Positions 22,409 to 34,651 of a stretch of 64,000 nt of DNA are shown here, piece after piece. A model generated the notes under the pieces. The model saw nothing but the letters and a program-made list of their open reading frames with translations. It did no database searches and had not been told where the DNA came from. How positions within the stretch are numbered: position 1 is the stretch's first letter; every line of letters begins with the position of its first letter. The stretch comes from Peteryoungia algae (lineage in GTDB: Bacteria; Pseudomonadota; Alphaproteobacteria; Rhizobiales; Rhizobiaceae): NCBI RefSeq assembly GCF_030369675.1, contig NZ_CP128477.1, positions 62,001-126,000 of the forward strand. Reading direction: 5' to 3'. The translations under genes and the position numbers were made by a program.

Positions 22409-22700
22409 CTAAAAATCGGAAACGTCTCTCGATGGGCCGCAGCGGCGTTCCATTAACGGTAAACCGGTGAGGCTGGCGCATGGGGTTTCGCCGGGCGATA
22501 TGTCGACGGGAACCGAAAACGAGTTGCCAAAACGCATGTTTCGCGGCCTTTCCCGGCTTCGGGAGCCGCCCAGGTCTTATCGTCATCCGGTTTTGTGCCA
22601 TGAAACTTTCATCGCACTGTCACACTGCCGAAAGCCTTTGTTGACGATTGAACCGCCAAATTTCCGCCCATAAAAACAAATGCATACTGGAGTATCGCCT

Positions 22701-24533
22701 ATGGGTGCGGGGGTCGCGGAAGATTTGGGCGCATTGCGGCGCTTCGCCAGTGACCAGTTGGTCACGCTTGCCAAGCTTGTCGTGGAAAATGCCTTCCAGC
22801 CGATCGTCGAGGTCGGAACCGGGGCGGTGTTCGGTCATGAAAGCCTGATGCGCGGTCAGGACCGCATCGGCTTTGAAAGCCCTCTCGATCTTCTCGACCA
22901 GGCCGCCGCCACGGGCCAGCTTCTGCCGCTGGAGCAGATGGTCGCGACCCGGGCGCTTGCCAAGTTCGCAACGCTCCCCGATCGCGCCGGCGCCACGCTG
23001 TTCCTCAATCTCGACGTTCGCCTCATCCCCGAAGGCAATGAGCTGGTTGATACGCTGCTCGACCAGCTTCGCAAGGCGCATGTGCCGCCGTCTTCCGTCT
23101 GCTTCGAACTGTCAGAGCGCTTCGACAACACCCGTGTCCCGGAATTTGCCGCCCTTGTCGAGCGTCTGCGCCGTTCGGGCTTCAAGCTCGCCATCGACGA
23201 CTTCGGTGTCGGCCATGGCGAGATGAAACTGCTCTGCGACTATCCGGTCGACTATGTGAAGATCGACCGCCATTTCATCACCGGCCTCGACAGCAATCCG
23301 CGCAAGCGCCACCTGGTGAAAAACATCGTCAATTTCTGCCATGTGCTCGGCGTGCGTGTCATCGCCGAGGGCATCGAAACCGAAAACGAATTCCTCGCCT
23401 GCCGGGAGTTCGGTGTCGATCTGGTCCAGGGCTGGTATATCGCCCGCCCCAGCACCATTGTCTCGGAGCTGAAGAGCGCCTTTCCCCATCTCCAGGATGT
23501 GGGCAAGGCTCGCCGCGCCACGCAGTCGCTCGACGAGATCTTGATCCGCAAGCAGATCGAGACCCTGCCAACAGTCTTCGAGCACGAAAACATCGACCAT
23601 GTCTTCGATCTGTTCCGCCGCAATCCCGGCCAATCCTTCTTCCCCGTCCTGAATGCCAATGGCGAGCCACGCGGCATCATCAATGAGCGGCATCTGAAGG
23701 AATACATCTACCAGCCCTTTGGCCGCGATCTTCTGAAGAACAAGCTCTACGAGCGTTCGATTTCCCACTTCGTCGACCGCGCCCCGATTGTCGGCCTCGA
23801 TGCCGATGCCGAGCGGCTGATGACGATGTTTGCCAATATGGAAGGTTCCGACTGCGTCATCCTGACGGAAAACATGCGGTATGCAGGTGTCGTCTCGGCT
23901 GCCTCGCTGATCCGCATCATGAGCGAGAAGCAGCTGAAGACCGCTCAGGACCAGAACCCGCTGACGGGCCTGCCCGGCAATCGCGCCATCCGCGATTTCA
24001 TGCGCTCGGCGGCCCTGGATGGCGATGGAACACGATTCTGCTGTTACTGCGATTTCGACCATTTCAAGCCGTTCAACGACCATTACGGCTTCCACCAGGG
24101 CGACCACGCGATCTCGCTCTTCGCGGCCCTCCTGCGCCGCTATTTCTTCTCTGAAGACGATTTCCTCGGCCATGTCGGCGGCGATGATTTCTTCATCGGC
24201 GTCAACGATTGGACCCGCGAGGAACTGGCCGAAATCCTCGACCGCCTCCTGTCGGATTTCCACGACGACGTCATCGACCTCTATTCCGAGGCCGACCGCC
24301 AGGCCGGCCATATCAGGGGCCTCGATCGCCAGGGCCTGGAGCGCGATTTCCCGCTGATGCGCTGCTCGATCGGCGTTCTCGAACTCCCCTCAGGCCTCGT
24401 CATCGACGATGTCAATCGCATCAGTGGCGAGATCGCCGAGCTGAAGAAACAGGCCAAGGAAAGCGCCGAAGGCGTGGTGATCGGCGTGTCGGGCGACAAA
24501 GAGGCGACGTTATCCTCCGGCCGTGCCGCTTGA
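22701..24533 (+). CDS. EAL-CBS-GGDEF cyclic-di-GMP protein
   Basis: A 610-residue cytosolic protein. Residues about 25-255: EAL phosphodiesterase domain with ESL for EAL, DDFGVGHGEMKLL, YVKIDRHFI, AEGIET and VQGWYIARP, so most metal and catalytic residues are present. About 270-400: two CBS-like repeats (SHFVDRAPIVGLDADA, VILTENMRYAGVVSAASL), suggesting nucleotide sensing. About 415-590: GGDEF domain with signature GGDDF near residue 491, Glu replaced by Asp. ATG 22701 has GGAG 9 bases upstream, which the ATG at 22680 lacks. It may be mainly a phosphodiesterase. Confidence 0.88.
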   Translation: MGAGVAEDLGALRRFASDQLVTLAKLVVENAFQPIVEVGTGAVFGHESLMRGQDRIGFESPLDLLDQAAATGQLLPLEQMVATRALAKFATLPDRAGATLFLNLDVRLIPEGNELVDTLLDQLRKAHVPPSSVCFELSERFDNTRVPEFAALVERLRRSGFKLAIDDFGVGHGEMKLLCDYPVDYVKIDRHFITGLDSNPRKRHLVKNIVNFCHVLGVRVIAEGIETENEFLACREFGVDLVQGWYIARPSTIVSELKSAFPHLQDVGKARRATQSLDEILIRKQIETLPTVFEHENIDHVFDLFRRNPGQSFFPVLNANGEPRGIINERHLKEYIYQPFGRDLLKNKLYERSISHFVDRAPIVGLDADAERLMTMFANMEGSDCVILTENMRYAGVVSAASLIRIMSEKQLKTAQDQNPLTGLPGNRAIRDFMRSAALDGDGTRFCCYCDFDHFKPFNDHYGFHQGDHAISLFAALLRRYFFSEDDFLGHVGGDDFFIGVNDWTREELAEILDRLLSDFHDDVIDLYSEADRQAGHIRGLDRQGLERDFPLMRCSIGVLELPSGLVIDDVNRISGEIAELKKQAKESAEGVVIGVSGDKEATLSSGRAA

Positions 24534-24589
24534 ACCTGCAGTCTTATTCGTCATGATGCCGCAAGTGTGGACAGCGCCGCGCGAAGACC

Positions 24590-25072
24590 ATGAATGAGAG
24601 ACAGATGTTTTCGGTGGCCAAGGAGCCCGCAGACCAGCCAGAGATCCAGCGCCTTCTGGACCTTTCGGACGCCGTTGCCGCATCCCTTTATCCCGGTGCC
24701 TTTCGCCAGCCGTTGAACTGCGCCACCCTATCGCGGCCCGACATCGCGCTTTATGTCGCGCGCAATACCGCCGACATTGAGGGGAGCCGCGCGCTCGGTT
24801 GTGCCGCACTCCTTGATCTGTCGGACGGCACGGCTGAACTCAAGCGGATGATCGTCGACCCTGAATACGCAAACCGAGGCATAGGCAGCGGGCTCATCCA
24901 CGCAGCTCTGGAGGGGGCCCGCCAACGCGGCATGCGAAGCGTGCTGCTCGAAGTTGGCATCCGTAACATCAAGGCCCGCCGTCTATACGAACGCGCCGGT
25001 TTTCGCGACCGGGGTCCATTCGCGTCGTACCTTGATACGCCGATTGCCACGTTCATGGAGATCAGCCTGTAA
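24590..25072 (+). CDS. GNAT family N-acetyltransferase
   Basis: A 160-residue acyltransferase. The acetyl-CoA-binding motif A is ELKRMIVDPEYANRGIGSGLIHAAL (R/Q-x-x-G-x-G/A as RGIGSG) and motif B is RLYERAGFRDRGPF. It most resembles small GNATs annotated as amino-acid or small-molecule acetyltransferases; the substrate cannot be told. It starts 57 bases after the EAL-CBS-GGDEF gene with no clear terminator between them, so co-transcription is possible. Confidence 0.87.
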   Translation: MNERQMFSVAKEPADQPEIQRLLDLSDAVAASLYPGAFRQPLNCATLSRPDIALYVARNTADIEGSRALGCAALLDLSDGTAELKRMIVDPEYANRGIGSGLIHAALEGARQRGMRSVLLEVGIRNIKARRLYERAGFRDRGPFASYLDTPIATFMEISL

Positions 25073-25095
25073 GGCGGGTGAGGCGTATCCGGATA

Positions 25096-26811
25096 TCAGC
25101 GAAACAGCTGCATCAATGTCTCGCTGTTGCTGTTGGCGATAGACAGCGACTGCACGGCAATCTGTTGCTGGGTCTGCAGCGCCTTCAGGCGTGTGGAAAC
25201 CTCGTTCATGTCTGCATCGACAAGGCGGCCGACCCCGCTGTCGATGCTGTCGGAGAGCTTGTCTGCAAACTCTGCCTGCATCTCGATGCGCGTCTGCAGC
25301 GCGCCCAGCTGGCTGGCGCTGCTGATCGCCATCTTTTCCATGTGGTCGACACCCCTCAGATACTGGTCGATGGTTCGGACGTTCTGGGTGATGTCGACTT
25401 CCGCCAGATCGAAGTCCGGCGCATAGGGCGGGTTTGACTGGATGTTGCCAACATAGACACGCGCGGCAGGATTGCCGGCTTCCGGATAGACGGTCTGGTC
25501 GGCGGAAAAGCTGATCAAGTTGCCGCTTGCAACGGCCATCAGATTGCTCCCGATGGAGGCCTGGCTGATGACGGCAGCCAGGTCTGCTGCGCTGCCGATA
25601 TAGCCGTCGACCGTACCGAGTGCCGCATCAACGACCGCCCGGTTGATCGTGTAGGTCGTCGTGGCGCCGGGGCCGACCTGCACATCGAAATAGACCTCTG
25701 CCAGGGGGGATACCGTAAACGCCGTGGTGAACGAGATCGACGCTCCGGGATACATGTTGTCATGGTTCTGATCCGGCGCGTCCTCCAGACCCATGGCAAA
25801 ATTTGCCGGATAGGCGCCGCTGGCAAAGCTGGAGGCGACATTGGAGATCGTGATGCTGGATCCCGGATGGCCGGAAGTTTCCAGCGACCCGATCTCGAAA
25901 TGCGTGGTGGAACCGCCGCCGGAAAACAGGGACTCGTAAGCCGTCGCAGGAACACCATTGTCGGTGAAGGCACGTTCCAGCACGGCACGCAATTGTGCCG
26001 GACTGGCGACGATCCCGTCGGTGGTGCCGAGTGCGGCATCCACGAGAGCCTTGTCGATCGTCAGTGTATGGTCATTGCCCGTCGAATGGGTCCCGGAATC
26101 GACATTGATGTCGAAGGTGATGGTATCGCCCGCGGCAAACGTCACGCCACCGGTGAACTTGTGGCGCTCATGCCCCTGATGCGCGACGGAATTGACGCCG
26201 GTGCCGCGGAAGCCGCCGATATCGCCGACACTGTGGATCTGTTTCTGCAGGATGCCCCCACCGCCGCCTTCGTTCAGCATGCTGGACTGCTTCAGGTCGA
26301 TATCCATGGTCTTGACCTGGACATTGCCGCTCGCGTCGCGGACGAAGGAAGAGACCACGCTCGTCGTCATCGGCCCTTCTTCGAGGAGTGGCAGAGTGGA
26401 TTTTGTCTTCAGCAGGTTCTCGCCGCTGAAACTTGCCGATTCCACGATGGATTCGGCTTGCGCGTTCAGCTGCGAAAGCTCTTCCTGGATCTTCGCCCGG
26501 TCGACGCCTTGTTCCTTGGCCGCAACCAGTTTTGCCTTGAACTCCCCGAGGATGTCGGTGATGGCGGCCGTGCCGGCATAGGCGGTGTCGAGTTTGGCAG
26601 CGCCGAGGCCAAGCGCGTCGGATACGGCGGAAATTGCCATGTTGTCCGAGCGCATCGTGGTGGCTATCGACCAGTAGGCTGCATTGTCTGAGGCTGCTGC
26701 AACCCGCAGTCCGGAGGCTGCCTGCTGCTGTGAGACGGTCAGATTTGCGGCAACGCTCCGCAGTGTCTGGAGCGCAGCAATGGCGCCCAGATTCGTGTGA
26801 ATACTGGTCAT
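25096..26811 (-). CDS. Flagellin with large central insert
   Basis: A 571-residue flagellar filament protein. Residues 1-145 and about 480-571 are the conserved D0/D1 ends (MTSIHTNLGAIAALQTLR; IANSNSETLMQLFR). The middle is much longer than in flagellins of 320-400 residues and contains a duplicated unit at about 222-283 and 357-419; both have an FDxxV strand, then VDAALGTxDG and an alanine-rich AQLRAVL/ADLAAVI helix. It resembles DUF1522-type inserts. The start MTSIHTN is the family norm; the open frame continues upstream. No other flagellar genes are in the window, so it is a stand-alone locus. Confidence 0.93.
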   Translation of the reverse strand: MTSIHTNLGAIAALQTLRSVAANLTVSQQQAASGLRVAAASDNAAYWSIATTMRSDNMAISAVSDALGLGAAKLDTAYAGTAAITDILGEFKAKLVAAKEQGVDRAKIQEELSQLNAQAESIVESASFSGENLLKTKSTLPLLEEGPMTTSVVSSFVRDASGNVQVKTMDIDLKQSSMLNEGGGGGILQKQIHSVGDIGGFRGTGVNSVAHQGHERHKFTGGVTFAAGDTITFDINVDSGTHSTGNDHTLTIDKALVDAALGTTDGIVASPAQLRAVLERAFTDNGVPATAYESLFSGGGSTTHFEIGSLETSGHPGSSITISNVASSFASGAYPANFAMGLEDAPDQNHDNMYPGASISFTTAFTVSPLAEVYFDVQVGPGATTTYTINRAVVDAALGTVDGYIGSAADLAAVISQASIGSNLMAVASGNLISFSADQTVYPEAGNPAARVYVGNIQSNPPYAPDFDLAEVDITQNVRTIDQYLRGVDHMEKMAISSASQLGALQTRIEMQAEFADKLSDSIDSGVGRLVDADMNEVSTRLKALQTQQQIAVQSLSIANSNSETLMQLFR

Positions 26812-26840
26812 GAAAAAGACTCGCGGAGGGGGATGATGGC

Positions 26841-26855
26841 GACGCATCATGCGTC
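26841..26855 (-). promoter_or_regulatory. Dyad upstream of the flagellin gene
   Basis: GACGCA and TGCGTC are perfect arms around TCA, 30 bases before the flagellin start. It may be a regulator site or a 5' leader hairpin controlling flagellin translation. Confidence 0.45.
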
Positions 26856-27035
26856 AATAAGTGATATCTGTTTAAGGGCCTGCATGGTTAACGAAATGTA
26901 AATCGGCCAATGCGAGGTTTCATACTTTCATCATTGCAACCAAAAATGATCACCTTGCCAGCCGAGGCAATTCACCACATTTCTGCTGACGGTATCGTGC
27001 GTTAGCTATCGTTTCTGTCAATTGGAGTTCTCCCG

Positions 27036-28037
27036 ATGTCACTGCCCGCCACCATGCGCCACGTCGATTTTCCCGCCCATGGCGGCCCGGAGGTCATGAG
27101 CCTCATCAAGGGGCCACTGCCGAGCCCGCGCACCGGCGAAATTCTGGTGAAGGTGGCGGCTGCGGGCGTCAACCGGCCGGATGTCGCCCAGCGCCAGGGC
27201 GCCTATCCGCCGCCGAAGGATGCAAGCCCCATCCTGGGCCTTGAAATCGCTGGCGAGATCGTCGCACTGGGGGACGGCGTCACCGACTTCCAGATCGGCG
27301 ATCAGGTCTGCGCCCTGGCGAACGGCGGTGGCTACGCGGAATACTGTAGCGTGCCGGCCACCCAGGCCCTGCCATATCCCAAGGGCTATGACGCCGTGAA
27401 GGCAGCAGCCCTTCCCGAAACCTTCTTCACCGTCTGGGCCAATCTCTTCCAGATGGCGGGCCTCACCGAAGGCGAGACCGTGCTCATCCATGGTGGCTCC
27501 TCCGGCATCGGCACAACCGCGATCCAGCTCGCCAGGGCATTCGGCGCCACCGTCTACGCGACGGCCGGCTCGGCCGAAAAATGCGCCGCCTGCATGGATC
27601 TCGGCGCTGCCAGGGCGATCAACTACAAGGCCGAGGATTTCGTCGAGATCGTCCGCGAAGAAACCGGCGGCAAGGGCGTCGATGTGGTGCTCGACATGAT
27701 CGGCGCTGCCTATTTCGAGCGCAATCTTCAGGTTCTGGCGAAAGACGGCTGCCTCTCGATCATCGCCTTCCTGGGTGGTTCGACCGTCGAAAAAGCCAAT
27801 CTCTCACCCATCATGGTCAAGCGCCTGACGGTGACAGGCTCCACCATGCGCCCGCGCAGTCAGGAAGAAAAACGCGCTATCCGCGACGACCTGATGACGC
27901 AGGTCTGGCCCCGCCTGGAACGCGGGGATCTGGCTCCTGTCATCCATTCGGTGCTGCCGTTCGAGTCTGTCGTGGAGGCGCATCGGCTGATGGAAAGTTC
28001 GGCGCATATCGGCAAGATCGTGCTGAAGCTGGGGTGA
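27036..28037 (+). CDS. NAD(P)H quinone oxidoreductase, zinc-free MDR family
   Basis: A 333-residue medium-chain reductase of the quinone oxidoreductase/PIG3 type. N-terminal GroES-like domain ([21 protein letters not shown]), then a Rossmann fold with [18 protein letters not shown] near residues 148-165 and [16 protein letters not shown]. The cysteine/histidine zinc ligands of alcohol dehydrogenases are missing, as usual for this branch. GGAG precedes the ATG. Likely function is NADPH-dependent reduction of quinones or reactive carbonyls. Confidence 0.92.
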
Positions 28038-28116
28038 GGCTGCGGCGCACTTCGGGACATCTGGCGCTTCGCTCGCCTTGCAATCCATGGCCCAAAAGCG
28101 CCGACCGGGACCCTGG

Positions 28117-29283
28117 TCAGGCAACATACGAAAACTTGCTCAGGTCCAGCGCGGGTGAGATTTCGTGTTCGATGCCGCCGCCGCTTCGCTTTGCCCGGTA
28201 GGAGGCCCGGTCTGCGGTCGCCATCATGTGCTCCAGTTTCGCAGAGCCCGAAAGTGCCATCGTGTATCCCAGGCTGACGCCGATGGCGATCTCCTCACCG
28301 CCAATCCGATACGGCAGGCCGAGCACATCCAGGATCTTTCGCGCCAGGGTTTCAGCGTCTGCGGGATCCCTGATGTCGGGCTGCAGAATGACGAATTCGT
28401 CGCCGCCAATCCGCGCGGCAACAATAGGCGGATCCAGGGTCTCTTGCAGCCGCTTGGCGATACCTGCGAGCAAAGCGTCGCCGACCGCATGACCAAAGCG
28501 ATCATTGACGCCCTTGAAGCCGTCAAGGTCGAAGAGATGGATGCAGGTGAGCATATCGTCAGTGCATTCGAGGCTCGAATAGGCCTCGATCAACGCCGTT
28601 CTGTTGCGTAGCCCTGTCAGCGGGTCACGGCGTGCCTGCCGTTCCATATCCAGACGCAGGCACATTTGTCTCGTCGTGTGGCGGTAGACGTGCAGGACGC
28701 TCTGCATCGCAGCGAACAGGAAGAGCACGCACATCATGCCCAGGATCCAGTGGACCGTATCGCCATACAACAAGACCGAGATTGTCGTCGGCAGGCCTGC
28801 AATCAAGATCGCGGTTGCCGCGATGAACGGCCGGACGGATATCCTGACCGCCACCCCGGCAGAGTATCCATAGATCAGTGCTGCAGCGAGGAGGTGGACT
28901 GACAGATCCCGGTAGGAGAAGGCGGAGGTGGTGATTGTCCCCACGCAGCCCGCAATGAGAAAGATGAGAAGTCCGTGGGCCGCCTGCCAGCGGGCGGCAT
29001 CCGCAACCGTCACGGACTGCCTCGCGTCTGCGTGCCGATGGGCGAGGGTCACGGCGATTTTGGCCAGCGAGGCAATGGCCCCGATGATCGTGGCAATCAG
29101 CAGCGGCGTGCTTCCAAGGCTCTCATAGGCGAACAGGCCGACGGCGAGAATGGTCACGGCCATGATTGTCGTCGGGGTCAGTGTCGAGTTGAGCTCCGAC
29201 ACCAGCATCTTGAACACATCGTCGGTCTCTCTGTAGCGCACACCGAACCCTTTATTCAGACCGTCGGCCCGGTAGAGGGCCAT
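28117..29283 (-). CDS. Membrane-bound diguanylate cyclase
   Basis: A 388-residue protein with six hydrophobic segments in residues 35-200 and a C-terminal GGDEF domain (about 215-375): DPLTGLRNRTALIE, FDLDGFKGVNDRFGHAVGD and ARIGGDEFVIL, an intact active site that should make c-di-GMP from two GTP. GGGA lies just before the ATG. The N-terminal membrane region presumably senses an unknown signal. Converges with the quinone oxidoreductase gene. Confidence 0.93.
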   Translation of the reverse strand: MALYRADGLNKGFGVRYRETDDVFKMLVSELNSTLTPTTIMAVTILAVGLFAYESLGSTPLLIATIIGAIASLAKIAVTLAHRHADARQSVTVADAARWQAAHGLLIFLIAGCVGTITTSAFSYRDLSVHLLAAALIYGYSAGVAVRISVRPFIAATAILIAGLPTTISVLLYGDTVHWILGMMCVLFLFAAMQSVLHVYRHTTRQMCLRLDMERQARRDPLTGLRNRTALIEAYSSLECTDDMLTCIHLFDLDGFKGVNDRFGHAVGDALLAGIAKRLQETLDPPIVAARIGGDEFVILQPDIRDPADAETLARKILDVLGLPYRIGGEEIAIGVSLGYTMALSGSAKLEHMMATADRASYRAKRSGGGIEHEISPALDLSKFSYVA

Positions 29284-29630
29284 TGTTCCCTCAAGAGTGA
29301 AAGGCGGAGCTTAAGATTCCGTCAGGCCCACCCCTAAAATCTGGCCGGCGAGCCGGGCTGTCGCTGGGGCTATCGGTGACAGCGCAGGAAGGTGTCGGTG
29401 CGAACCTGCCGGATGGCAGGCCGATTGAGCATGCCTTGCCCCGCGTTTTCCAGGCGTCGTGGCGGAAAAGCGGTGACCTCGATGGAACGGCATCAGGGCC
29501 GCAGGCGTCTAGGAAGAGCGATGATGCGTTCCCTCGCATTGTCTTGAGCGTCAGGACATCAAACGTCGGGCCATCCCTTGGTGGTGGTCGGTGGGGCATC
29601 TGGGACGCCGAATGTGAAAGGAACTTCTAT
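29284..29630. other. Intergenic region without a supported gene
   Basis: This 347-base stretch separates the divergent diguanylate cyclase and proteasome-like genes. The plus-strand frame is open from 29376 into the next gene, but the sequence before 29631 is low in recognisable content and has no ribosome binding site. I see no clear hairpin or operator. Confidence 0.5.
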
Positions 29631-30326
29631 ATGACCGTCGTGCTTGCCACCGTTTGCCAGGATGGCGTCGTTCTCGGCTCGGACTCCCAGATCACCGACA
29701 AGGGGAGAGGCATGACCTATCCCGCCGAGAAGCTTCATCCCCTTGGAGAATCGGCGGCCTGGGGTGGCAGTGGTGCGCGATCCGTGCTGACCGATGTGAA
29801 ACGCTGCTTCAATGATAACAGCGCATCCATTCTGGAGGCACCCGACATTGGCCGTGCGCTGCAGGCGCAGGTTCTCCCGATCCTGCGCCACCATTACGAC
29901 ACCTTCATTCCCGACGTGCCGGGCGAGGAAGGCGGCGGCACGCCATCGGCCTATGTGATGGCCGCCGGATGGCGGGAGGGCGAACCCTGGATCATCGAGA
30001 TAACTCCCTCGGGCATGATCGGCCACTATGCCGATATCGGTTTTCACGCGATTGGCAGCGGTGCGGCCATGGCCCAGCAGGCGGGGTCGCTCTTGTCCCA
30101 CTTCCACCTGAGCGAGCGGTCGACGCGTTTTGGCTGCGCGGCGGTGTTGCGGGTCCTGCAGGCGCTCGATCTCACCTCGGCCAGCGTCGGCAAGCCGTTC
30201 AGCCTGTGTCGGATCGATGCCGAGGGCGCCCATCACCTCAGCGACGAGGAGATCGAGGAACTCAGCGGTATCGTGGGCCGATGGGAGGAGGCCGAGCAGG
30301 CCATCATCGGCGACATCTTCGACTGA
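29631..30326 (+). CDS. Proteasome-like Ntn hydrolase (beta-subunit fold)
   Basis: A 231-residue protein whose N-terminus reads M-TVVLATVCQDGVVLGSDSQ. After removal of Met, Thr1 is followed by Asp at position 17 (GSDSQ) and Lys at 33 (YPAEKLH), the exact spacing of the proteasome/HslV catalytic Thr1-Asp17-Lys33, with the beta-fold GGSG turn afterwards. AAAGGAA lies 8 bases before this ATG; starting at 29376 would bury Thr1. It resembles neither HslV nor Anbu closely by eye. No ATPase, ATP-grasp or transglutaminase gene is adjacent. A self-activated peptidase is inferred; partners are unknown. Confidence 0.72.
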   Translation: MTVVLATVCQDGVVLGSDSQITDKGRGMTYPAEKLHPLGESAAWGGSGARSVLTDVKRCFNDNSASILEAPDIGRALQAQVLPILRHHYDTFIPDVPGEEGGGTPSAYVMAAGWREGEPWIIEITPSGMIGHYADIGFHAIGSGAAMAQQAGSLLSHFHLSERSTRFGCAAVLRVLQALDLTSASVGKPFSLCRIDAEGAHHLSDEEIEELSGIVGRWEEAEQAIIGDIFD

Positions 30327-30553
30327 TCAGGCCGGCACGGAACGCTCCTGGCCGACGCCTTTGGAAATGCTCCCTGCAGCGCATGGACCCGAAAAGATCC
30401 GATCCGGCTCGGTACTAGACGTCAGTCAGGGCCGCCACGGCACCCGAAGAGCGCCAAGTGATGCAGCCGGTACCTGCCCCTGCATCAGGACTGAGGCCGA
30501 CTGTCGCTCCGGGCTTTCGGATCGGAGCGCCGACCAGAAACCCGTCCCCCCCG

Positions 30554-31579
30554 TCAAGACACTGTGACCGGCTTCGACCGCAGCATGCTGGCCGTAGCCG
30601 GGTCGGCGCGCCGACAGAGGCGGGGCGGCAGTCCTTTCATGATCAGTTCGGCATCGACGACCGCCATCGAACCCAGGGCATAAAAGGCGTCCCGTGTCCC
30701 GCCCGTCCTGTGCGCGGACAGCAGAATGCCGGAGGTTTTGCGCACGGGATCGTCTGCGGCGACGGGCTCCTCCGGAAACACGTCCGTTGCCACCTTGATA
30801 TGGCCGGATTGCGCAGCCTCGATCATCGCCGGGAAGTCGACGACGGCAGCCCGGCTCATCAGCAGAAACGCCGCACCCGGCTTCATCAGGGCGAATTCCC
30901 GTTTTCCGACGAAGCCCTCGTTTTCGCTGGTGACGCTCGCAAATACACAAACCACCCGGCTTTCGCTGAGCACGTCGTCGAGCGTAGTCGGCTCGCAATC
31001 CTGGCGTTCGATAATCTCCTTGGGAAGCCAGGGGTCAAAAACGCGGACCTTGTTTCTGAACGGGCGAATGAGGTCCCGAAACTCCCGGCCGAGATCGCCG
31101 AAACCGATGATTCCGACGGGTGCGCCTGAGAAACGGAAGGTGTTCGCATTGCCCTCCAGACCATAGCGCTCGACACCCTGACGAAAATCGCGATCCGCCG
31201 CGGTGATCCCCCGGGCAAGATCGAGCGCCATGGCAAGGGCCGCCTCCGCCACCGGAGAGGCGAAGGCCGAGGCCGGCGTGATCACCCAGATCCCGCGCTC
31301 GACGCAGGCCTGATAGTCGATATTCGGCAGGAAGTTCGATTCGACATTGATGATCGCCTTCAGCTTGGGCGCCTTGTCCAGACGTTCCCTCGGCATGTCG
31401 GTCTGGCCGAAGATCAACACCGTCTCGGGAAGAAGTCGCTCGACGTCTTCGGCAGGCATTGCCCGGTCTTCCGAGACGATGACCTCGCCCAGCGCCTCAA
31501 GCCGCGCTCTGACCGAAGGCTCCATGATCAGTTCGAGTGTCCTGGGCAATGGATCGACCAGAATGATGTTGCGGCCCAA
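30554..31579 (-). CDS. D-isomer-specific 2-hydroxyacid dehydrogenase family protein
   Basis: A 341-residue NAD(P)-dependent dehydrogenase. The Rossmann segment VGIIGFGDLGREFRDLI lies near residues 155-170, the catalytic Arg in MSRAAVVD, the Glu in VFPEEPV and the His in SAHRTGGTRDAF. The best start is a TTG at 31579 with GGGAGGA 6 bases upstream. Substrate is not predictable; relatives include phosphoglycerate, glyoxylate and hydroxypyruvate reductases. It may form a short operon with the small gene at 31625-31930, which lies upstream on the same strand. Confidence 0.88.
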   Translation of the reverse strand: MGRNIILVDPLPRTLELIMEPSVRARLEALGEVIVSEDRAMPAEDVERLLPETVLIFGQTDMPRERLDKAPKLKAIINVESNFLPNIDYQACVERGIWVITPASAFASPVAEAALAMALDLARGITAADRDFRQGVERYGLEGNANTFRFSGAPVGIIGFGDLGREFRDLIRPFRNKVRVFDPWLPKEIIERQDCEPTTLDDVLSESRVVCVFASVTSENEGFVGKREFALMKPGAAFLLMSRAAVVDFPAMIEAAQSGHIKVATDVFPEEPVAADDPVRKTSGILLSAHRTGGTRDAFYALGSMAVVDAELIMKGLPPRLCRRADPATASMLRSKPVTVS

Positions 31580-31624
31580 TGTTTCCTCCCTTGAAACCCG
31601 CGTAAGACACGCGGGAGCGCCTGC

Positions 31625-31930
31625 TCAAATCCCCGAGCCGTCCAGCTCCTTTTCGTCCTTCCCCTCCCAGGCCGGCGGCCGGACCATCGCATCCAGGTTG
31701 ACCCCCGGAAGCGGCATCCAGCATTTCAGCTCCGGCTCCGCATAGGCAACGATCAGGCCAGGCGTCGAGTCCGACGAGCGCCAGCCATCGGCTCCGAAGC
31801 GGTCCCCGTTCGACCAATAGACGAGATCGACCGCGCCAGGCCCCTGTTCGGAGGCGCGGATGGTCACGAGGATACGGCTGCCGTCTTTCGGCGCCGTGCG
31901 CATGTTTCGCCAGCGGTTGGTTTCTTCCAT
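31625..31930 (-). CDS. Small DUF551-like protein
   Basis: A 101-residue protein with the pattern W-x-x-M-x-T-A-P-K-D-G-S-x-I-L near the N-terminus, then YWSNGDRFGADGWRSS and a late CWMPLP, which recalls short tryptophan-rich DUF551 proteins. Function unknown. The ATG has GGGAGGAG 8 bases upstream. It is 45 bases upstream of the hydroxyacid dehydrogenase start. Confidence 0.72.
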   Translation of the reverse strand: MEETNRWRNMRTAPKDGSRILVTIRASEQGPGAVDLVYWSNGDRFGADGWRSSDSTPGLIVAYAEPELKCWMPLPGVNLDAMVRPPAWEGKDEKELDGSGI

Positions 31931-32126
31931 GTTGTAACTCCTCCCATTGCGGAGGCGAGTGTCACCGCCGGAGCAGGGACGGTCAATATAAATTGGCGAT
32001 TGGATCAGCGCTGAGCGCTTGGCGACGGGTTCACACCATCTTTTTTCAGGCCTGTTTCATGCCATAGGATATGGCATGTCTGCCGAAACCCTGAACGAAC
32101 CCGCACTGCGACAAGGAATGATCCTC

Positions 32127-32495
32127 ATGCCCAAAAGCCCTGTCACGTGTGAAGTTCGCTATCACCTCGATCTGGAGCGCATCGCGGAATTCGAGGCCTA
32201 TGCCCGCATCTGGATCAAACTGATCGAACGTCACGGCGGCACGCACCATGGCTATTTCATGCCGCGAGAAATGCCGCAGGATGCCAAGGTGAGCTTTCAA
32301 GGCTTGGGGAGCGAGGGGGCGGCCGACATGGCGATCGCGCTGTTCACCTTCGCGGATGACGAAGCCTATGCGCGCTATCGGGAGCAGGTGGCAAAAGATC
32401 CGGATGGCGTGGCCGCGAACGCACGGTTCGGCGACGATCCACCGTTTCGCAGCTATGAGCGCGTTTTTCTGACGCCTCTAGCGACCGCAGTCTGA
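32127..32495 (+). CDS. NIPSNAP family protein
   Basis: A 122-residue protein with the dimeric alpha/beta-barrel NIPSNAP pattern: VTCEVRYHLDLERIAEFEAYARIW, then RHGGTHHGYFMPRE and a second strand set MAIALFTFADDEAYARY. The family's role is not settled. ATG 32127 has AGGA 10 bases upstream, and its N-terminus fits the family; ATGs at 32076 and 32118 are alternatives. It stands alone. Confidence 0.82.
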   Translation: MPKSPVTCEVRYHLDLERIAEFEAYARIWIKLIERHGGTHHGYFMPREMPQDAKVSFQGLGSEGAADMAIALFTFADDEAYARYREQVAKDPDGVAANARFGDDPPFRSYERVFLTPLATAV

Positions 32496-32643
32496 TCTCG
32501 TCACCGGCGCGCGAATTGTGGACGAAACCTGCCGCAATGCAACACAATTATCCCAACAAAACGTCACACAATGTGCCTTGTCGAATCCGCGAACGCACCC
32601 TACCTTTCAATCATCGGCAACGTAACGAAAGGAAGGTGATCCA

Positions 32644-32718
32644 ATGTCTAATGAGATTTCGGTCTGCGTGTGTGACTTTGGAAAGGGTGCGGTTTTGACG
32701 GGGCAGCCCTCGGCCTGA
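32644..32718 (+). CDS. Putative 24-residue small ORF in a structured transcript
   Basis: ATG at 32644, stop at 32716, product MSNEISVCVCDFGKGAVLTG plus QPSA. The preceding AAAGGAAGGTGATCC is almost the full complement of the 16S rRNA 3' end (AAAGGAGGTGATCC with one extra A), an unusually long ribosome binding site for so short an ORF. A hairpin and a strong terminator follow within 85 bases. It could be a leader peptide, a dual-function sRNA ORF or a small protein with a CxC motif. I do not recognise a family. Confidence 0.45.
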   Translation: MSNEISVCVCDFGKGAVLTGQPSA

Positions 32719-32777
32719 TCCAGCCTTCCTTCGGATGGTTTTCCATCCGGGTCCAGACAAAGGACTAAAACTCATGG

Positions 32778-32803
32778 GAGCCACCCTCGCGGGTGGCTCT
32801 TTT
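32778..32803 (+). terminator. Intrinsic terminator
   Basis: Nine-bp perfect stem GAGCCACCC/GGGTGGCTC around a TCGC tetraloop, followed by TTTT. Confidence 0.88.
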
Positions 32804-32836
32804 GATTCAAGGGTTTTGCATCGAGGGCAGGATGCC

Positions 32837-33571
32837 CTAGGGTCCGACCGTCCCGAAGCCCGGCACCTTGATGCCCGGCCGGGCGAAATCCACGCCCGCC
32901 ACGAGACCGAGGAAATTCACCTCCAGCCCGCTGCGCACCCCGACCGACAGTCCGGCGAGCCCGCCGAGGCTCAAGTGCAGGTCGCGTCCATCCTTGTCGA
33001 GATGATAGAAGGCCCCGCCGGCCAGATAGTCGCGGCCCACGGCATCGGCCGGCAGCACGGCGCCCAGTTCCGGCACTTCGCGCAACACATGCGCGACGAA
33101 GGTGTTGGAGTTCGGCCCCGGATAGATCCGGTAGCCTCCAGGCTGGCCATACTGATAGCCGCCGATCGCAGCCTCCACCATCGGGATCAGACGCTTCGCC
33201 TCTTCGCCCTTCACCTCCGCCACCAGTCGCGGCGGGTTGGAATACCAGAAGGCATCGGGTGCCCGGTGGTTGCGGCGGATAGGGGAGCCCCATCCCACCT
33301 TGTCATAGCGCTGATAGGCGCCGTTCTCCTCCTTGGTGACGATCCAGGCATGGCTGGCAATCGCGCCCTTCAATCCGCCCGTCATGGCGGAAAAGACATA
33401 GATCGCAGCTTCCGGGCTCTCTTCAGCCGTCGGCAACAGGCCCGACGAGCCCCATTTTGCCGCACTCCAGCCGTCGGGATGGTCCCGGGTCGCCCAGAGC
33501 CCGGCGGAAACCAGGGTCGGCAGCACGAAGACGAGCAGGATGACGGAGATGATGCGCAGCAGAAATTTCAA
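32837..33571 (-). CDS. DUF3750 family protein
   Basis: A 244-residue protein with an N-terminal signal anchor (MKFLLRIISVILLVFVLPTL). The body has SHAWIVTKEENGAY, PGPNSNTFVAHVLREVP and FYHLDKDGRDLHLS, typical of DUF3750, an exported family with NlpC/P60-like His and Asn/Cys-position motifs in my reading. The start is TTG at 33571; no ATG gives an intact hydrophobic N-terminus. It diverges from the asparaginase gene. Function unknown. Confidence 0.82.
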   Translation of the reverse strand: MKFLLRIISVILLVFVLPTLVSAGLWATRDHPDGWSAAKWGSSGLLPTAEESPEAAIYVFSAMTGGLKGAIASHAWIVTKEENGAYQRYDKVGWGSPIRRNHRAPDAFWYSNPPRLVAEVKGEEAKRLIPMVEAAIGGYQYGQPGGYRIYPGPNSNTFVAHVLREVPELGAVLPADAVGRDYLAGGAFYHLDKDGRDLHLSLGGLAGLSVGVRSGLEVNFLGLVAGVDFARPGIKVPGFGTVGP

Positions 33572-33643
33572 TCCGGACCTCGAACGGGATGGAGATGCAT
33601 GCTTTAAGAAGCATCAGACAATATTGGCATTTTGAGGCAGATC

Positions 33644-34651
33644 ATGGAAAATCCGATCACGGTCGAGGTCACGCGCGGTCAACTCGTCGAGAGCCGCCAT
33701 CGCGGTCTGGCGATCGTGGTCGATGCCGAAGGCAAAATCGTCTTCTCCGCCGGTGATGTCGATGCCGGCGTGTTCCCGCGCTCGGCCTGCAAGGCCATGC
33801 AGGCTTTGCCACTGGTCGAAAGCGGCGCGGCCGATGCCTATGGCTTCGGCAACCGGGAACTCGCACTCGCCTGCGCCTCCCATTCCGGTGAGCCGGAGCA
33901 TGTCGCAACCGCTGCCGCCATGCTGAAGGCGGCGGGTCGTGATGAAAGCGTGCTCGAATGCGGCGCCCACTGGTCGTCGCACCAGGCCGTGCTGATCGAG
34001 CAGGCGCGCACGCTGGACAAGCCGACCGCACTTCACAACAATTGTTCGGGCAAACATTCCGGCTTCGTGTGCACCTGCTGCCACACCGGCGAGGACCCGC
34101 GCGGCTATGCCGGTTTCGACCATCCGCTGCAACAGGCGATCCGCGCCATCATGGCGGATCTCACCGGTGCCGTGCTCTCCAGAGACAATTGCGGCACCGA
34201 CGGCTGCTCCATCCCCACCTATGCCGTGCCGCTGATCGGTCTCGCGCGCGGCTTCGGCAAGCTCGCAACGGGCAGTGGCTTGGAGCCCATCCGGGCCGCC
34301 GCCGCCCGCAGGCTCATCAACGCCTGCATGGCCGAACCCTTCTATGTTGCCGGGACCAGGCGCTTCTGCACGAAACTGATGCAGGTGGCACCGGGCAAGA
34401 TATTCGCCAAGACCGGCGCCGAAGGCGTCTTCTGCGCACTTCTCCCGGACAAGGGCCTCTCGTTTGCCGTAAAGGCCGAGGATGGCGCCACCCGCGCCGC
34501 CGAGGCCATGATCGCCGCTTTGCTTGCCCGCCATTTCGATGAGGGCAGCGCGGAACACACCACGCTCACGGGAATGTCCCGCCACGGCATGAGCAACTGG
34601 AACGGTCTTCATGTCGGCACGATCAGGGTGACGGACGTGCTCTTCGCCTGA
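33644..34651 (+). CDS. L-asparaginase, Rhizobium etli type (class 3)
   Basis: A 335-residue enzyme hydrolysing asparagine to aspartate and ammonia. It belongs to the asparaginase II family of R. etli, unrelated to E. coli AnsA/AnsB. Expected active-site elements are visible: Ser47-x-x-Lys50 in PRSACKAM, Ser79 in ASHSGEPEH, the Cys/Lys metal site in NCSGKHSGF and DNCGTDGCS, and the late Lys in FAKTGAEG. Numbering is one lower than in the ReAV structure as I recall it. GAGG lies 7 bases before ATG 33644. Confidence 0.92.
   Translation: MENPITVEVTRGQLVESRHRGLAIVVDAEGKIVFSAGDVDAGVFPRSACKAMQALPLVESGAADAYGFGNRELALACASHSGEPEHVATAAAMLKAAGRDESVLECGAHWSSHQAVLIEQARTLDKPTALHNNCSGKHSGFVCTCCHTGEDPRGYAGFDHPLQQAIRAIMADLTGAVLSRDNCGTDGCSIPTYAVPLIGLARGFGKLATGSGLEPIRAAAARRLINACMAEPFYVAGTRRFCTKLMQVAPGKIFAKTGAEGVFCALLPDKGLSFAVKAEDGATRAAEAMIAALLARHFDEGSAEHTTLTGMSRHGMSNWNGLHVGTIRVTDVLFA

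Follow-up and report, generated by a model that had tools for sequence, protein, structure and literature searches.

The analysed window comprises 64,000 nucleotides from Peteryoungia algae (contig NZ_CP128477.1, positions 62,001 to 126,000 of the forward strand), and the gene under study lies at 29631..30326 on its plus strand. The gene starts with ATG and encodes a proteasome-like N-terminal nucleophile (Ntn) hydrolase of 231 amino acids (aa), followed by a stop codon. A Shine-Dalgarno site, AAAGGA (29617..29622, +), is located 8 nt ahead of the ATG. When the protein is numbered in its mature form, with Met removed, Thr1, Asp17, Thr21, Lys33, and Gly47 fall on the corresponding proteasome positions, and no propeptide is present. 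A preliminary description, made from the letters of the DNA alone, had proposed this open reading frame (ORF) with Thr1, Asp17, and Lys33 in exact proteasome numbering and had taken the well-placed Shine-Dalgarno sequence as confirmation of the start; both points were borne out.

The start codon was assessed in several ways. All ORFs of at least 120 aa in the six frames of the whole window (170 ORFs with 1119 possible starts) were scanned, and the combination of Thr or Ser at residue 2, Asp at residue 18, and Lys at residue 34 was unique to this start. A purine-rich, Shine-Dalgarno-like stretch precedes the homologous ATG in 34 of the 35 relatives' loci, as located by script; the 35th locus (L032) also has an ATG start, with gagagga in the upstream alignment. 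Exactly one residue precedes the Thr in 191 of 203 near-full-length homologues, and the alternative start, a GTG at 29376 that would give 316 aa, is therefore unsupported. A single promoter-like site at 29311-29340 was found by consensus match only.

The residues expected to form the active site are strictly conserved. The codons of Thr1 (Met-numbered residue 2, the predicted nucleophile; 29634..29636), Asp17 (29682..29684), Lys33 (the predicted general base; 29730..29732), and Gly47 (the predicted oxyanion hole; 29772..29774), all on the plus strand, specify residues that are invariant in 101/101 aligned relatives; homologues lacking Thr1 or Lys33, which would have refuted the preliminary description, did not occur among them. 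The complete set of invariant positions in this alignment (A2) is T1, D17, Q19, T21, K33, G45, S46, G47, R49, and L52. A strict motif search over 207 fetched proteins matched 189; of the remaining 18, four begin only after the Thr, and the printed starts of the other 14 still contain T, D, and K. Family-wide conservation is strong at the pocket residue R49 and in the segment that begins with Asp17 and ends near residue 38. Positions 20, 31, 35, 45, 49, and 53 presumably line the S1 pocket; as position 49 is counted among them, the invariant Arg49 suggests that the protein may prefer acidic P1 residues or C-terminal carboxylate groups.

The assignment to the proteasome-type Ntn hydrolases rests on the Pfam Proteasome model (PF00227), which the protein passed with 30.2 bits at a cut-off of 22.4, and on its predicted Ntn sandwich. 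The NCBIfam models for 20S beta subunits scored far under their cut-offs (bacterial TIGR03690, 17.1 of 191.9 bits; archaeal model, 16.3 of 224 bits), in agreement with the initial placement outside the actinobacterial-type 20S beta subunits. Among the PHROG profiles, phrog_1040, 'peptidase HslV family', matched (8.5e-8), and the PADLOC models gave no match. Profile alignment returned both the alpha (6.3e-6) and the beta subunit (2.5e-6) of the M. jannaschii 20S proteasome, so that the protein resembles both.

With the window protein as query, 773 homologues were found at E ≤ 0.001, and a relative of 64% identity yielded 1107 at the same threshold; the best 120 were listed in each case. The clade analysis, which covered 203 of the 207 fetched proteins, resolved two sister clades, 113 proteins with at least 79% identity to the window protein and 90 with at most 66%, separated by an empty gap and by a split with a FastTree support of 1.0. 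Judged by the minority of rows that carry an organism's name in the two listings (the best 120 each out of 773 and 1107), the first clade belongs to Alphaproteobacteria and the second to Actinomycetota (Aquipuribacter, Egicoccus, and Amaricoccus were looked up, the rest assigned by name); one further named row reads 'soil metagenome' only. The strongly conserved stretches are common to both clades. Public annotations of members read 'proteasome protein' or 'Ntn hydrolase family protein'; the family is thus already known to the databases. Plasmid matches were found neither for the window protein (E ≤ 0.001) nor for an actinobacterial member (E ≤ 0.01). In searches reaching only close relatives, 50,697 phage records contained no match at E ≤ 1, and a scan of viral contigs returned 14 pattern matches, none encoding a relative.

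An AlphaFold2 model of the single chain, built from 101 sequences, reached a pLDDT of 92.5 and adopts the four-layer Ntn sandwich with helices H1-H4, which is the fold that the preliminary description had anticipated. H1 spans residues 50-69, H2 73-91, strand S12 199-202, and the C-terminal helix H5 205-230 (30243..30320, +; block pLDDT 85-98); S3 and S4 are not separated by an inserted helix pair. With 26 residues, the predicted H5 is similar to that of 20S beta subunits and Anbu, and the beta-subunit fold with H5 can be regarded as a confident prediction. Among the PDB matches listed, the closest folds are ring-forming 20S beta subunits. HslV or BPH chains did not occur among the 50 matches listed in each of two PDB comparisons, which says nothing about their likeness to the model. 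Viral structure models gave 28 matches at E ≤ 0.001 (TM 0.42-0.63 by query); few of them are named, and HslV and proteasome subunits appear among the names.

Known members of the superfamily agree with the window protein in part. It shares the Thr1-type beta fold with HslV, besides the phrog_1040 match, but has a longer C-terminus with S12 and H5. From PrcB, the 20S beta subunit of Mycobacterium and Rhodococcus, it differs in the missing propeptide and in the low TIGR03690 score. The long helix H5 is also found in Anbu, to which the identity is only 13-18% among the matches listed. The suggestion that the protein represents a little-described, separate branch was too strong, since databases already label its members and since Fuchs, Alva and Lupas (2021; PMC8665760) described 22 further prokaryotic proteasome-like families beyond HslV, Anbu, BPH, and connectase. 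According to the available part of that paper, to which the following comparisons refer, function and AAA+ partners of these families are not known, and no co-occurring AAA+ protein is reported.

Two of the described families come close to the window protein (PMC8665760). WPH ('Widespread Proteasome Homolog'; reference sequence WP_040339656.1) has a long C-terminal helix, as predicted here, and resembles 20S alpha as well as 20S beta, as was also seen here; the helix of WPH is predicted to form a coiled coil. Its hosts likewise include Proteobacteria and Actinobacteria; WPH also occurs in archaea and PVC bacteria, of which no members were seen among the matches listed here. AAH shares the alphaproteobacterial and actinobacterial distribution of our organism-named members. 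AAH is, however, compact and devoid of S12 and H5 (a general statement of the paper on HslV, BPH, AAH, CPH, and PPH), whereas both elements are present in our model. AAH is found in many phages; our searches, which reach close relatives only, found no phage match. Compared by descriptions only, the protein looks like AAH in its distribution and like WPH in S12/H5 and its alpha/beta similarity; either name, or neither, may apply. Judged by titles and abstracts, the literature searched contains no work on WPH or AAH beyond Fuchs et al. (2021); other papers treat Anbu, BPH, and others, and in the accessible text of a 2026 review citing Fuchs et al. the searched terms occur in the reference list only (PMC13022661).

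A second, different alphaproteobacterial proteasome-like protein of the same class was encountered at L080:1501-2247. It comprises 249 aa, begins with M-TVVVAFLCTDGIVLAADS, and adjoins an ORF resembling a tyrosine recombinase by eye. Of its 418 homologues at E ≤ 0.001, the best 120 include only three with a Pfam Proteasome match, and Bradyrhizobium, Nitrobacter, Agrobacterium, and Tardiphaga are the organisms named among them; phage records gave no match at E ≤ 0.01. The family was considered as a better fit to AAH, which its relatives did not decide. HslV of the P. algae genome, used as bait for phage proteins, returned 13 records with 52-59% identity, of which two carry an HslVU annotation and the others none; these were not the phage families sought. 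PHROG 1040 matched 303 of 385 genomes of the class; among 30 loci inspected, HslU adjoined in most, and L046, L049, and L056 were left over.

The neighbouring genes were assigned by Pfam. A zinc-type oxidoreductase (27036-28037) and a GGDEF protein (28117-29283) lie upstream, a 2-hydroxyacid dehydrogenase (30554-31579) and a 101-aa ORF without a matching Pfam family (31625-31930) downstream. Further neighbours are DUF3750, L-asparaginase II, GNAT, and EAL/GGDEF proteins and a flagellin-family protein of 584 aa (25096-26850, minus strand) with a large middle part between Flagellin_N and Flagellin_C. The Pfam test for partners covered nine likely genes within 22680-34651, one of them having no family match at all and the ORF at 32019-32495 being left out. 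Among these nine neighbours, neither an AAA+ domain nor hslU was found, which agrees with the earlier claim that no unfoldase or partner gene is nearby. The Anbu operon often contains transglutaminase, ATP-grasp, and Alpha-E genes (PMC5666114, available part); none of the three is among the nine. To look for conserved partners, ORFs were clustered over 42 regions (the 35 loci, six congeners with short flanks, and the window). All clusters common to at least 12/42 regions lie on the gene itself, and true neighbours recur in at most 8/42. An open frame of 225 aa runs antisense to the gene (29559-30236, minus strand), and a cluster of mostly antisense frames was present in 41/42 regions, perhaps as a by-product of GC-rich codon use.

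Elsewhere, the genome carries a normal hslVU pair with HslV beside HslU, in line with the view that the window protein is not HslV. A PF00227 search of the genome hit one place only, the hslV locus, and showed no partner alpha subunit; the same search overlooked the window gene, so other misses are possible. In the genome of L014, HslV gives a match in two overlapping pieces, which suggests a frameshift in the record.

The gene is distributed patchily. It was found in 12/63 genomes of the genus, the present one included, and in the class sample (385 genomes) only the match in this genome is genuine; the second, in L044, with 62 residues at 39%, falls within what by eye is the frame of an IspDF-like protein and was dismissed as a chance hit. 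In the phylum sample 3/398 genomes matched, again including this one; the other two were rejected, L080 being a 28-residue match to another proteasome-like protein and L081 an HslV-like protein. A species-genome scan, whose patterns reach only close relatives, gave 35 loci in 34 genomes. Rhizobiaceae bacterium ACE_PRO27 has two copies on two contigs (L011:1216-1911 and L035:8001-8696) with near flanks alike. The copy of Mesorhizobium microcysteis (L034:6244-6934) contains internal stops in one frame (691 vs 693 bases), which a frameshift or a faulty assembly could explain.

DNA homology with the window ends at most 29 bp ahead of the ATG in 33/35 comparisons and at most 13 bp past the stop codon in 35/35. 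Upstream, only the Shine-Dalgarno region is widely common and no larger common element was seen in these comparisons; in several pairs of close genomes, the flanks in common are far longer and reach as much as about 8 kb on one side. Part of these abrupt ends may reflect plain fast decay of non-coding DNA. Orthologues of the 2-hydroxyacid dehydrogenase (at least 85%) occur in 22/63 genus genomes, the present one included, nine with and 13 without the proteasome-like gene. In six of the nine, the two genes lie within 2 kb in three different arrangements, and in three they lie elsewhere. The congener L098 is devoid of the gene with its flanks, about 1.2 kb (29344..30550, blastn coordinates), and has the same two neighbours about 60 bp apart. 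Across the genus loci (window 27036-31930, L082-L103), the GGDEF gene, the proteasome-like gene, the 2-hydroxyacid dehydrogenase gene, and the 101-aa ORF are found in several orders and subsets. As small neighbours there also change order, the locus looks like a general hot spot of small gene shuffling. No mobility gene adjoins the gene according to Pfam; terminal repeats were not searched for.

Ratios of dN/dS against 33 relatives range from 0.05 to 0.14 and indicate purifying selection, although with dS between 0.6 and 1.8 the ratio is rough. In 22 comparison genomes, HslVU is 73-98% and the window-type protein 83-90% identical to its counterpart in the P. algae genome, with only a weak correlation between the two sets of distances (Mantel rho 0.20, permutation p 0.05). 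Purifying selection, patchy presence, changing junctions, and near-independence from HslVU together suggest that this looks like an accessory gene whose function is maintained and which is exchanged horizontally.

Taken together, the protein is probably a stand-alone, propeptide-less, homo-oligomeric threonine peptidase of the proteasome beta type that would act independently of an unfoldase. Methionine aminopeptidase would remove the Met and leave Thr1 free from the start; as there is no propeptide, autoprocessing is not expected. Lys33, oriented by Asp17, would then deprotonate the Thr1 hydroxyl, with Gly47 as the oxyanion hole. Contacts of H1-H4 and H5 could build a homo-oligomeric two-layered particle that, as a closed double ring or, Anbu-like, as an open spiral, would hide the sites. 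Short or unstructured peptides would be cleaved in it without a dedicated AAA+ unfoldase, and the single accessory gene would spread between alphaproteobacteria.

Several observations speak against the peptidase so described, foremost among them an apparently missing second triad. In the proteasome, the Thr1 amine is tuned by Asp166 and Ser129, D166N or D166A damages the enzyme, and D166 mutants are crippled (PMC4792962, available text). The Ser129 equivalent is retained as Ser143 (Ser in 95/101 rows), but the profile alignment places Ser183 at Asp166 (Ser 86/101, Ala 10/101) and Val186 at Ser169 (Val 99/101). Although free of gaps in this region, the alignment has low identity, so the placement of both equivalents is itself inferential. 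Because the Asp166 equivalent appears to be replaced, classical peptide hydrolysis is not assured, and the family either works differently at the Thr1-amine step or tolerates the loss of Asp166. In addition, a first AlphaFold2 model from 15 sequences reached a pLDDT of only 44.5 and was set aside for the 101-sequence model. Finally, the genome contains four AAA+ matches to the Mpa/ARC profile (pup_AAA), which are possible partners in trans; they are below the cut-off, above which no Mpa-type ATPase was found in this genome, and such matches likewise occur in 13/14 control genomes.

This apparent gap in the second triad also makes a ligase or amidase conceivable. Connectase, in which the proteasome-like fold serves a specific ligase (PMC8665760), is a precedent for an enzyme that would use Thr1 as a ligase, a transpeptidase, or an amidase instead of a protease and act as a small oligomer or monomer, and the strong conservation of the Asp17 to residue 38 stretch and of R49 would suit one specific substrate. 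Connectase, however, is without H1-H2 and carries two additional helices between S3 and S4 (PMC8665760); our model is the opposite on both counts, and its closest listed folds form rings, which makes this alternative possible but unlikely. The sub-threshold AAA+ matches, along with the conserved stretches common to both clades, would also fit the substrate-cleaving core of a conventional ATP-dependent protease served in trans by a housekeeping or distant AAA+ protein. Since transfer between hosts seems to involve this gene only, such a partner would need to be ubiquitous, and the available text of Fuchs et al. reports no co-occurring AAA+ for their families (PMC8665760); we consider this arrangement rather improbable. 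A proteasome or HslV that has degenerated into a remnant without catalysis could account for the patchy presence in the genus and for the altered look of the second triad, but purifying selection in 33 pairs and active-site residues invariant in all 101 rows across two phyla make it very hard to sustain.

With the stand-alone peptidase as the preferred reading, the window protein is a new member of a known, uncharacterised kind, distinguished by its mobility and its active-site surroundings. A bolder reading, which we put forward only tentatively and regard as doubtful, combines the two: a mobile, one-gene, unfoldase-free relative with altered Thr1 surroundings (no Asp166/Ser169, an invariant Arg49, and an equally invariant cleft of Gln19-Thr21, Pro30, and Lys33) might, in the alphaproteobacteria that exchange it and the actinobacteria that have it too, act as a specialised peptidase or peptide ligase on a single conserved target with a carboxylate, and would then be a proteasome-fold enzyme of a kind not yet characterised. 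Since the gene is short, stands alone, and encodes no propeptide, expression and testing should be straightforward. Self-compartmentalising proteases are usually considered together with an unfoldase; a lone, horizontally exchanged beta-like subunit with its catalytic triad retained but the second triad apparently lost would offer a compact test case for the fold without its regulator and could inform how homo-oligomeric intermediates such as Anbu arose.
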